Source: Clostridia bacterium (GTDB lineage: Bacteria; Bacillota; Clostridia; Christensenellales; Aristaeellaceae). From it: a stretch of 64,000 nt of DNA. Shown here piece after piece: positions 43,454-51,967 of this stretch. The notes under the pieces were generated by a model, which saw nothing but the letters and a program-made list of their open reading frames with translations, was not told where the DNA came from and did no database searches. The position numbers and the translations under genes were made by a program. Where the stretch lies: positions 1 through 64,000 of the forward strand of contig JAFXBE010000025.1 in assembly GCA_017516765.1 (NCBI GenBank), written 5' to 3'. Within the stretch, counting starts at the first letter, position 1. Every line of letters begins with the position of its first letter.

Positions 43454-43469
43454 AGCACACTGCACACTC

Positions 43470-43504
43470 AAAAAAGGAAGGGACTGCTATGCCCTTCCTT
43501 TTTT
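43470..43504 (-). terminator. Terminator of the MotA/MotB-like operon
   Basis: A 13-bp perfect inverted repeat (43470-43482 with 43492-43504) with A and T runs, 3 bases past the last gene of the operon. Confidence 0.87.
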
Positions 43505-43507
43505 GAT

Positions 43508-43996
43508 TCATTTGGAAACGATCCGCTGCTGAAAGCTGATGCCCCACACATAATAACTGACAATCAGTTCCCGCGCATTCGAACGTACAGAATGTGTCAG
43601 CACCGTTGCGCTTACCTCGCCGCTTGTTTTGGCTGCCAGGGAATAATCCTGCATATTGCCCAACTGTACCACGTCATCGGGTTGCGGCACCACCTGCACC
43701 TCGATCATCTCAATGGGTACAAGGCACCCGTTGTTAACGGAAACCTGATAGGTAACATACGCATATTCCGACGAATCGAGCCATGCAGCGGGTACATTGT
43801 AAACCGTACCCACAAAGGTCTGTTCATCAATGCTGTCCTTCAATGCATTGAAGGAAGGAACCGTCGAAGCGATAATACTCTGGTGACCTGTAACCTCAAC
43901 CTTTACTTCTGCTGACAGAAACAAATAGCCAAGGAGCAGCGCCATGACTACCAGCATGGCTACAAAAATGATCATGATCGTCTTCAACGCTTTCAT
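43508..43996 (-). CDS. Single-pass membrane protein, third gene of motor-like operon
   Basis: A 162-aa protein with one N-terminal membrane helix (about residues 6-28) and a beta-rich extracytoplasmic domain (VEVTGHQSII, YVTYQVSVNNGCLVPIE, ELIVSYYVWGI). No family is recognised. Its ATG overlaps the MotB-like stop by 4 bases, so it is coupled to that gene and likely works with the complex as an outer accessory subunit or sensor. Confidence 0.65.
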   Translation of the reverse strand: MKALKTIMIIFVAMLVVMALLLGYLFLSAEVKVEVTGHQSIIASTVPSFNALKDSIDEQTFVGTVYNVPAAWLDSSEYAYVTYQVSVNNGCLVPIEMIEVQVVPQPDDVVQLGNMQDYSLAAKTSGEVSATVLTHSVRSNARELIVSYYVWGISFQQRIVSK

Positions 43997-45051
43997 TGTT
44001 GTTCTCCTTCTGCGATTACGGGTTGAGGTGACAGGATGTTGCGGAGCTCATCGATCATCTCCGTATCCTTGAGCCTGAATTTGAATTCCACTCGGCGGGA
44101 TGCATCCATATTGATGGTGCCGTCCGGATTGTATACGGGATTGGAATAACTGCGGCCTTTGGCAGTCAGGATACTGCGAAGAAGGGTCAGCTTTTCACCG
44201 GAAAGACCGGGCATTTCCAGACAATAGGTGGCAACGCTGAGAGCTCGTTCCTGAGACAGCTCCAGGTTGCGCAGATAGGTACCCTGTGTATCGGTGTGTC
44301 CTTCGATAATAATCTCACCAAGAAAATCGGCGTATTCGGGCTGCAGCAAAACACCCAGATAAACCGGGATAAAGCGGTTAAGAAGCTGCTTGCCGCTGTC
44401 CTTGATGCCGTTTTTGCCCACATCGAAGAAAACCGTGGATTCCAGAACGATGTCGCCGGTATTCTTATCGACGGTCGCACTCAGATTGGCATTTTTGAGC
44501 GCGTTGTTCAGCTCGTGAATAATCTGGGTCTTCACGCCTACCAGATCGTCAAGGCGTTGCTGGTGGTTGGCAAGCGCAAGCTGCTGCTGCTCCAGCAGCA
44601 GGGTTGCATCGTCCAAGGCGGTCTGCTTGGTCGTGAGGGCAAGATTGGCTGCTGCCAGCTCGCTTTCACGCTCTGCCAGCAATGCCTGGGTGGCGATGAT
44701 GATGATCTGCTGCTGTTGCAAGGTGTCGCTTTGGGTATCAAGCGTTGCCTGCTGGTCTCCCAGGAGGATGAGCATATCATCCAGTTCGTCCTGCTTCAGA
44801 TCCAGTTCTTCCTGCTTATCCGCAAGAATAATCGCCTGCTCATCCAGCGTGCCCTGCTGTATGATCAGCAGCGATTCTTTGTCGGCGAGTTCCAATGTTT
44901 TGGTTTCCAGCATGGCGAAATACTGATACACATTGTAACAAAGCACAAGTACAAACAGCATCAGCAGGGAGGCCATCATATCCGAATAGCTGATCCATGC
45001 GGCGCCGTTATCGCCTCTGATCTTTGAACGCCTGTCTTTTCTTCTGGCCAT
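43993..45051 (-). CDS. MotB/OmpA-like (ZorB-like) stator protein with long coiled-coil linker
   Basis: A 352-aa protein. A basic N-terminus leads to one membrane helix that begins ISYSDMMASLLMLF, with Asp 24 at the place of the proton-carrying Asp of MotB and ZorB. Residues about 50-170 form a very long coiled coil with repeated L-Q-x-x-L steps. The C-terminal OmpA domain (about 205-335) has IIIEGHTDTQGTYLRNLELSQERA and binds peptidoglycan. It is 6 bases after the MotA-like gene. Together they should form an ion-driven unit linked to the cell wall. Not a flagellar MotB by context. Confidence 0.83.
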   Translation of the reverse strand: MARRKDRRSKIRGDNGAAWISYSDMMASLLMLFVLVLCYNVYQYFAMLETKTLELADKESLLIIQQGTLDEQAIILADKQEELDLKQDELDDMLILLGDQQATLDTQSDTLQQQQIIIIATQALLAERESELAAANLALTTKQTALDDATLLLEQQQLALANHQQRLDDLVGVKTQIIHELNNALKNANLSATVDKNTGDIVLESTVFFDVGKNGIKDSGKQLLNRFIPVYLGVLLQPEYADFLGEIIIEGHTDTQGTYLRNLELSQERALSVATYCLEMPGLSGEKLTLLRSILTAKGRSYSNPVYNPDGTINMDASRRVEFKFRLKDTEMIDELRNILSPQPVIAEGEQQ

Positions 45052-45057
45052 AATCTA

Positions 45058-46260
45058 TCACTCCTCGGCCGATGCAGTGCCTTCCAGATCGCTTGTAACG
45101 CGGTCTACCGCTTTCTGCATGCGCACCAGAGAATCGTTCAGAGAGACGAGTTTATCTGCAAGCTGCTGCGCCGCGCTTTCTGCTCCGCTCAGGCGCAGAT
45201 CCTGCTGGGTAAGCTGCTGATCGAGCTTCTGGCAAATATCCTGCAGGTTCTTTGCGATATCGTTCGTAACCATCTGCATGATCCGGGCATTATCGCTCAT
45301 GGATTGGGTAGCGCTCAATGTTGACTGCAGATTCTTCTGGGTCTGCACCTGCCCCTGGTTGACCGCATTCATCGTATCGGAAACAGCGGCCATCTGCCCC
45401 CCGAAGGAGGCATTCATCTGGTGGAAAAACTGATTGACCACACTGCGCATTGCTTCAGATTGTTCGATGGTGGCGCCGCGCATGAAAGCATCCATGGTAC
45501 GACTAAGCGGCGCAAGGGTATGCCCAAGGGCAACTTCCATTGCCGCTGACACCTGAGAGCCGATGGATTGCGCCATACGATTCATACGTTCTTCTTCGTC
45601 CTGCTTGCTGCACAGAAGCTGCACATCCGCATCCAGCGGTCTGGGCATTGCAAGCTCGTAAAAAGCTTCCTCAAAGCTGTTAAGAGCGCGCACGGCATGC
45701 CCGGACGCGATCCGGTTGCCCATATTGAACAAAAGGGAACAGGCGATACCTGCAACCGATGTAGCAAATGCAAAGCGCATACCGCCCAACAGTGTGGGAA
45801 TGCTGTTGAGCGTTCCGTCTGCACTGGCAAAATCAACGCTGGTAAGACCCTCCATCAAACCAAGGAAGGTACCCAGAATACCCAGAGAGGTGAGCAGACT
45901 GGGGATCAGCTCTGCAAGCTGGGCGTGCCCGGGCTGTTCGATGACCGTTTCTTCGTTGATGTAGTCGCGGGTATCGCATGCCATGCCGCGAATATCCAGC
46001 TGTCCCGCATTAAGCAGAAACTGCTGCCAATGAGAACGAAGCGCGCGACCCAAAAAACGGGGCTCACGCCATGCAGGACGCTCCCCCGCCGCCGTCGTCT
46101 TTTCCAGCTTAACAACTGCACGGTTCAGCAAAGAAGCGTTGCGCAGCATCGGATAAATACATTTGCATATACCAATAATGGTAACAATGGCGATCGCGCA
46201 ATAAACCAGCCACTCAGACAGACCTGCCGTCAGCTTGCTGATCAATTCTTTGGTTGGCAT
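45058..46260 (-). CDS. MotA/TolQ/ExbB-like (ZorA-like) channel protein
   Basis: A 400-aa protein. A first membrane helix spans about residues 14-39. The paired helices of the MotA/ExbB core are LIPSLLTSLGILGTFLGLMEGL (about 133-155) and LLGGMRFAFATSVAGIACSLLF (about 170-192), a combination typical of ZorA and related proteins. Residues about 255-400 are a cytoplasmic helical and coiled-coil tail. ATG 46260 is chosen because GGAGGTGA lies just upstream; the reading from 46362 would include the promoter. There are no flagellar, ExbD or Tol genes nearby. Confidence 0.82.
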   Translation of the reverse strand: MPTKELISKLTAGLSEWLVYCAIAIVTIIGICKCIYPMLRNASLLNRAVVKLEKTTAAGERPAWREPRFLGRALRSHWQQFLLNAGQLDIRGMACDTRDYINEETVIEQPGHAQLAELIPSLLTSLGILGTFLGLMEGLTSVDFASADGTLNSIPTLLGGMRFAFATSVAGIACSLLFNMGNRIASGHAVRALNSFEEAFYELAMPRPLDADVQLLCSKQDEEERMNRMAQSIGSQVSAAMEVALGHTLAPLSRTMDAFMRGATIEQSEAMRSVVNQFFHQMNASFGGQMAAVSDTMNAVNQGQVQTQKNLQSTLSATQSMSDNARIMQMVTNDIAKNLQDICQKLDQQLTQQDLRLSGAESAAQQLADKLVSLNDSLVRMQKAVDRVTSDLEGTASAEE

Positions 46261-46298
46261 ACTGTCACCTCCGCAAAAATCGATATGGATACCTATAT

Positions 46299-46327
46299 AT
46301 CTTAACATTTGTTTCACATTTTGTAAA
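46299..46327 (-). promoter_or_regulatory. Promoter of the MotA/MotB-like operon
   Basis: Minus strand TTTACA (46322-46327), 17-base spacer, TAAGAT (46299-46304), about 35 bases before the start at 46260. With the terminators on each side it makes the operon an independent unit. Confidence 0.55.
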
Positions 46328-46384
46328 TACAAATGGAATAACTCGTTACAATAAGCTATCACTTTTACAGCGCGCCTTCAGCAT

Positions 46385-46414
46385 AAAAACGCGGAGAGCA
46401 TTCTCCGCGTTTTT
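46385..46414 (-). terminator. Terminator after DUF4230 gene
   Basis: A perfect 13-bp inverted repeat (46385-46397 with 46402-46414), 4-base loop, ending in a T run on either strand. Confidence 0.87.
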
Positions 46415-46426
46415 TGTACAGATCCA

Positions 46427-51400: not shown

Positions 51401-51967
51401 TTATTCCTGCGTCCTTACTTCCACAAAAGCCATCCCTGTAAGCCCTGTTTTCTCACACAGTCTTTTCACCTTTTCCGAACAAAACCATGGGATGACCTGA
51501 TCTCCCGTCAGCTTGAACAAGTCATATCCTCCAATTGCCGATGCTGACAGGCAGTATTTCCGTACGGAATAAAACGGCTCCCTGCGCCCAGGCACCTGAA
51601 ACGTGGAATAGTCAGAGCCTGACAGGCATAATGCCTCCGCCGGAGCCAACACATTTACCACATAGTACCGATGCACGGAATCGTCATCTTCACAGACCAC
51701 ATCCACAGGCAACAGTTGCACTTCTGTATTCACAACCTCCAACACATGCTGACGGAATGCTTCGGATATCAGCAACCAACCCTTGTCATTAGCCAGCCAG
51801 TCGGTGAGCACATGCCCCTCCTGCAGGCGATAGGCGAAACAGAAGCCGACGGGCAGAGGCTCTTCCGGTTGTCCGCGGCAGTATTGGTTCATTTCCGACA
51901 TGCTGGGGCTATGGCAGATCACATCCCCGATTCTTTCCATGTCGATTTCCATTTTGTAATAGCGCAT
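51401..51967 (-). CDS. Imm11-like (DUF1629/MXAN_0049 type) immunity protein
   Basis: A 188-aa soluble protein with the pattern of the Imm11/DUF1629 group: an N-terminal YYKMEID strand, a middle WLLISEAFRQHVLEVVNTEVQLLPVDV, a YYVVNVLAP strand and a C-terminal ending in GLTGMAFVEV. Members are predicted antitoxins of polymorphic toxin systems. No toxin gene adjoins it in the window, so it would be an orphan immunity gene. Function inferred from weak similarity. Confidence 0.65.
   Translation of the reverse strand: MRYYKMEIDMERIGDVICHSPSMSEMNQYCRGQPEEPLPVGFCFAYRLQEGHVLTDWLANDKGWLLISEAFRQHVLEVVNTEVQLLPVDVVCEDDDSVHRYYVVNVLAPAEALCLSGSDYSTFQVPGRREPFYSVRKYCLSASAIGGYDLFKLTGDQVIPWFCSEKVKRLCEKTGLTGMAFVEVRTQE

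Follow-up and report, generated by a model that had tools for sequence, protein, structure and literature searches.

The window analysed here, a stretch of 64,000 nucleotides from a genome of the Clostridia, carries a three-gene operon at positions 43508–46260 of the minus strand, as are all features of the window given below, and the open reading frames were confirmed where the preliminary description had placed them. The zorA-like gene (P0001, 45058–46260) encodes a protein of 400 residues that joins a MotA/ExbB channel to a tail; the zorB-like gene (P0002, 43993–45051) encodes 352 residues arranged as a membrane helix, a heptad stalk and an OmpA-type domain; and the third gene (P0003, 43508–43996) encodes a subunit of 162 residues, here called type a, with one membrane helix and an Ig-like β-sandwich. 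A gap of 6 nt separates zorA from zorB, zorB and the third gene overlap by 4 nt, and a ribosome binding site (GGAGGTGA, 46265–46272) serves zorA. The operon had been credited with its own promoter and terminator. The terminator is borne out by strong hairpins on both sides: an intrinsic terminator 3′ of the third gene (43468–43506; fold -21.9 kcal/mol, z -5.3), and an intrinsic terminator-like hairpin followed by a T run (46376–46420; fold -20.1 kcal/mol, z -6.1) that lies between the operon and an upstream DUF4230-like gene. The promoter is reduced to a promoter-like site, the sigma-70-like TTTACA-17-TAAGAT with TG before the -10 (46299–46327), which scored 9/12 in a consensus scan whose number of such sites in the region was within the shuffled range, so that by itself it is not above chance.

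Upstream of the operon lie the DUF4230-like gene and a LacI regulator, and downstream a TraX-type gene. The only defence-related gene among the scanned neighbours is one for an Imm11 immunity-type protein (51401–51967), 5 kb upstream. Across the family to which the genome belongs, no neighbour beyond the three genes is conserved, and no neighbourhood tying the operon to a known system was found. The three-gene order itself recurs across the family under purifying selection and is therefore not a product of chance; the third gene is present in the operon in 35 of 40 sampled loci, which supports both the conserved three-gene set and the coupling of a third membrane subunit to the motor pair that had been proposed.

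The ZorA-like protein matches Pfam MotA_ExbB at 1e-4 (22.5 bits, just below the Pfam cut-off of 22.9), PADLOC ZorA1 at 8e-19 and NCBIfam antiphage_ZorA_2 at 3e-18 over residues 94–366, the ZorA and ZorB matches not reaching the curated NCBIfam cut-offs. Its nearest solved structure is ZorA of Shewanella Zorya I (8vvn; 2e-16), aligned over residues 82–373 and thus including the tail. Homology leads one to expect three membrane segments, and 232 residues follow S168 as the tail. G127, T131, F165 and S168 do not vary across this family, its Lachnospiraceae homologues and true Zorya of types I and II. All of these groups also share a motif in the tail, at approximately residues 270–300. The membrane aspartate and the Ser/Thr ring of 5:2 motors are both present, as D24 of the ZorB-like protein and as T131 (codon 45868–45870), T167 and S168 of the channel.

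The ZorB-like stator matches OmpA (1e-11), MotB_plug (1e-4) and PADLOC ZorB1 (PDLC00609; 2e-70), with ZorB as its nearest solved structure (8qyd; 3e-28). Its ion-binding aspartate, D24 (codon 44980–44982), is invariant in 41 family homologues and in all sampled stand-alone homologues. Residues 48–172 (44536–44910) form a predicted coiled-coil stalk, in which Leu-Leu pairs at lag 7 are 3.2-fold over expectation; a coarse search for a hydrophobic heptad pattern with period 3.5 gave a negative result, the leucine period of 7 being clear. The linker from D24 to F209 spans 184 residues, against 68–100 in annotated or PADLOC-confirmed Zorya and 106–163 for the equivalent linker of MotB. The OmpA-type peptidoglycan-binding domain (residues 208–309, 44125–44430) retains invariant D254 and R269, which are spaced by 15 residues, as is the Asp/Arg pair that binds peptidoglycan in OmpA. 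Two unusual ZorB-like proteins were encountered elsewhere. One, at L045:17305–19248 (minus strand), is the second ZorB-like protein of its genome; its very long stalk is rich in Lys, Glu and Gln, and it carries a tandem pair of OmpA-type domains. The other, with a ZorB-like OmpA domain of 37% identity, is encoded in MT837639.1, an unannotated record of 6.5 kb from human faeces that is labelled 'Bacteriophage sp.' but is possibly a mislabelled bacterial fragment.

The matches to ZorA and ZorB models, the solved Zorya ZorAB complexes as nearest structures and the conservation of the ion site all show that the motor pair is, as judged from sequence, of the Zorya type and not flagellar, Tol or Ton. 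This identification as a stand-alone ZorA/ZorB-like motor, already made in the preliminary description, is well supported.

The system as a whole is not Zorya. Searches of the window's genome with the ZorC model gave no match while two positive-control genomes did, and ZorE was likewise absent from it, in a search of the three genomes G000, G057 and G126 whose positive control G189 matched at 4e-69. No full-length ZorD was found: in G000 the ZorD model matches only the SNF2 core, as it does for generic SNF2 proteins, also in control genomes such as E. coli, and the two SNF2 proteins of the window's genome match over the helicase core only and are DpdE-like or generic. Neither ZorC and ZorD nor the type III components ZorF and ZorG adjoin the operon. 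The reported absence of ZorC and ZorE extends from the locus to the genome, as does that of a full-length ZorD, and a complete Zorya with effectors in trans was rejected. The class does contain true Zorya, recovered as ZorA-B-C-D in two loci (L176 and L177) and as ZorA-B-E in a third (L180).

The third protein, which the preliminary description could not assign to any Zorya part, indeed has no match in Pfam, NCBIfam or PADLOC. An AlphaFold2 model built on 43 homologues (pLDDT 95, pTM 0.82) shows a membrane helix followed by the Ig-like β-sandwich, which would lie outside the membrane. Fold searches returned generic Ig-like sandwiches only (TM < 0.55), examples being ApaG, adaptin ears and the luminal domain of TMEM106B, and sequence searches of the PDB found no credible relative. 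In part of the family type a is replaced by a type b subunit that pairs a membrane helix with an NTF2-like domain; 15 of its 17 members give a weak SnoaL_4 match, and its model (pLDDT 84) finds NTF2-like proteins as fold matches. The two types show no homology (hhalign probability 2.7%), and across the family the third gene is of two unrelated kinds. A census of 40 family loci counted type a in 26, type b in 9 and neither in 5, and on the ZorA+ZorB tree the types form two separate clades with a few losses. At L057 (3749–8117) the type b gene stands one gene further on from zorB, separated from it by a gene of about 880 aa, and L132 and L154 have the same gap. A survey of 399 genomes from the phylum revealed no genuine type a gene outside the family; the three weak hits that came up elsewhere, all in one other family, are to a 230-residue repeat protein without adjoining motor genes and were judged spurious.

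The carriers of the operon are gut and rumen bacteria. A ZorA homologue is present in 142 of 150 family genomes, in 83 of the 86 near-complete ones and in 47 of 50 genera, nearly always as one copy, and the named relatives that have it include Candidatus Limiplasma pullicola (Limiplasma being placed by NCBI in Eubacteriales incertae sedis), Ventricola, Onthenecus, Pullichristensenella and Faecivicinus. The multi-member genera (g1, g14, g24, g26, g30 and g48) each group together in the ZorA+ZorB tree. From this near-universality and the genus-level grouping we infer vertical descent; the motor pair would be an inherited core operon. Nothing points to transfer, and the patchiness typical of defence genes was not seen among the 150 genomes. 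Its place is accordingly that of a core gene of the family rather than a defence-island gene, although such presence is also compatible with a role in defence. In the ZorB tree, the family proteins and the Lachnospiraceae stand-alone pairs form a branch beside Clostridia Zorya I and away from MotB, the exact placement being unsure because of two very long-branched rows (Klebsiella ZorB1 and L178); flagellar MotB forms its own fully supported branch. The observation that flagellar genes are missing from the locus holds genome-wide. FlhA (PF00771) was absent in 150 of 150 family genomes while control genomes matched, and the window's genome has a single MotA_ExbB-family gene. A flagellar stator was rejected on these grounds, and no standard MotAB with flagellar genes in trans was found.

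A link to the cell wall comes from relatives of the operon. In 11 loci an M15/VanX D-Ala-D-Ala peptidase (PF01427, 4e-41 to 4e-48) is encoded directly 3′ of the third gene, with the same 16-nt overlap at the stop codon in several of them; the EWWH motif is intact in all 11, and eight have a secretion-type leader. In one lineage (L052:6119–7318, the same as L118:7056–8255) third subunit and peptidase form a single fusion protein, with the subunit at residues 1–160 and the peptidase C-terminal to it at 201–398. The loci in which the peptidase is a separate neighbour belong to one subclade. The VanX-adjacent state requires two changes on the tree, so the link weighs as one or two evolutionary events plus the fusion, and it may have been a single event. 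No M15 peptidase turned up in searches of three genomes from the window's genus, so the motor itself does not require the enzyme. Since the third subunit is fused to or co-encoded with a wall peptidase in some relatives, a role of the motor in the cell wall is probable.

Other Clostridia have stand-alone ZorAB-like pairs too: they are found in Lachnospiraceae and in a further clade that branches more deeply, with a TPR protein often as the third gene. In five loci of this separate clade (L162, L163, L164, L166 and L169) the pair is followed by the TPR protein, and in one family of the clade (f43) all 11 of 11 genomes give a ZorB-like match; by this measure the TPR-associated pairs are core genes of at least one further clostridial family. 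In two more loci (L174:6400–10094 and L175:2744–6266), a ZorA-ZorB pair and a protein of roughly 400 aa with a weak match to EH_Signature are encoded between aroE and pilus-type genes. Their D24 is replaced by Ile and their ion-site Ser by Ala, and this motor is possibly non-conducting.

We propose, with a probability of about one half, that the operon encodes a Zorya-type 5:2 ion-driven rotary motor with a housekeeping role at the cell wall, in peptidoglycan maintenance or surveillance. The solved ZorAB complexes provide the homology basis for a rotary unit of five ZorA and two ZorB subunits (PMC11890865). On this basis, five ZorA subunits would form a channel around two ZorB helices, and ions would pass the ZorB aspartate D24 and the T131/T167/S168 ring of the channel, turning the ZorA pentamer and its cytoplasmic tail relative to ZorB, which would be fixed in the wall through its long coiled-coil stalk and peptidoglycan-binding domain. 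The third subunit, as a membrane-tethered outer-face domain, may sit beside the motor, gate it or couple it to envelope enzymes, and the likely task of the whole would be to maintain or survey peptidoglycan. The preliminary description had left defence, envelope stress and wall synthesis side by side; the VanX-type peptidase fused or co-encoded in relatives now tips the evidence towards the wall. A wall function is favoured because the Zorya recruits are missing, the motor is a core gene and the attached parts face the wall.

The main rival is that the pair acts as a core anti-phage sentinel, in which ZorAB would sense phage damage to the wall and the effector, a nuclease or another protein, would be unlinked or be the third subunit itself. 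The Zorya-type tail of ZorA is kept, and in Zorya this tail is needed for defence and is thought to recruit effectors (PMC11890865); the ZorB model family PDLC00609, moreover, belongs to a defence library. Yet near-universal, usually single-copy presence and genus-level grouping, the missing effectors, scanned neighbours holding the one Imm11-type protein as their only defence-related gene, and a third subunit whose outer-face domain is unlike a DNA effector all make this explanation unlikely. Similar in standing, and likewise improbable in our estimation, is a mechanosensor or regulated ion channel: a wall-tethered ZorB would respond to altered wall spacing by opening the ZorA channel, the signal would pass through the ZorA tail or the flux of ions, the third subunit would act as a regulator, and no work would be done on the wall. 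The anatomy, with its long stalk and wall anchor, is the same for both, and the unrelated third-subunit folds sharing one layout suggest a regulatory or adaptor role, but the conserved ion-site residues fit a motor equally. That the pair is the stator of some machine for an appendage or for secretion (flagellar, gliding or pilus) with its other parts elsewhere, as might be expected from all characterised relatives other than Zorya powering appendages or envelope transport (PMC9389320, PMC12505986), is very improbable given the missing FlhA, the fully supported separation of ZorB from flagellar MotB, the want of conserved neighbours and a flagellar case already largely refuted.

To our knowledge, ZorAB has been described only in defence, where it acts as the sensor. 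A description of a stand-alone ZorAB motor was not found in the literature searched, which is not proof of absence. Here a motor of the Zorya kind is a near-universal core gene of a whole family, effector-free and with an accessory subunit of its own that in one lineage is fused to a cell-wall peptidase. If this reading is right, Gram-positives would gain a non-flagellar wall-coupled motor and the origin of Zorya would become testable. Because such pairs recur in Clostridia, a ZorA/ZorB annotation there should not be read as defence. More tentatively, a peptidoglycan-anchored, ion-driven rotary motor might belong to the core machinery by which Gram-positives maintain their wall, its outer-face adaptors being exchangeable and, in some lineages, joined by a D-Ala-D-Ala peptidase, and Zorya might be an effector-armed offshoot of this older motor.

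Comparison with known systems places the operon closest to Zorya ZorAB (type I, 8vvn and 8qyd; type II, 8vvi), in which phage damage to peptidoglycan is the proposed trigger and the ZorA tail recruits nucleases (PMC11890865). The two share a channel and an OmpA-type stator, the ion-site residues D24, T131 and S168, the cytoplasmic tail motif of ZorA and the zorA-zorB order. They differ in that the operon has no ZorC/D, ZorE or other effector and has its own third membrane subunit, in a stalk about twice as long (184 versus 68–100 residues), in a shorter ZorA tail (232 versus 284–545) and in being a core gene with no sign of transfer where Zorya is patchy. In correction of the preliminary description, the motor belongs by sequence to the Zorya branch. 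With flagellar MotAB it has in common a 5:2-type layout of channel and stator, a membrane Asp and an OmpA-type wall anchor, but its ZorB lies on a separate branch, its family lacks FlhA and its heptad stalk is long. ExbBD, TolQR and AglRS resemble it in their MotA/ExbB channel fold and non-flagellar nature; their B subunits are without the OmpA domain (PMC12505986) that is present here. The other stand-alone pairs of Clostridia are likewise ZorA-ZorB without effectors, those of Lachnospiraceae grouping with this family, but they are without a type a or b subunit and several have a TPR protein instead. FliL-type stator accessory proteins are single-pass membrane proteins with an extracytoplasmic domain, encoded with their stator. 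The third subunits of this operon resemble them by analogy only, in layout and in being encoded with the stator; they differ in having no sequence match to them and in folding as Ig-like sandwiches or NTF2-like domains.
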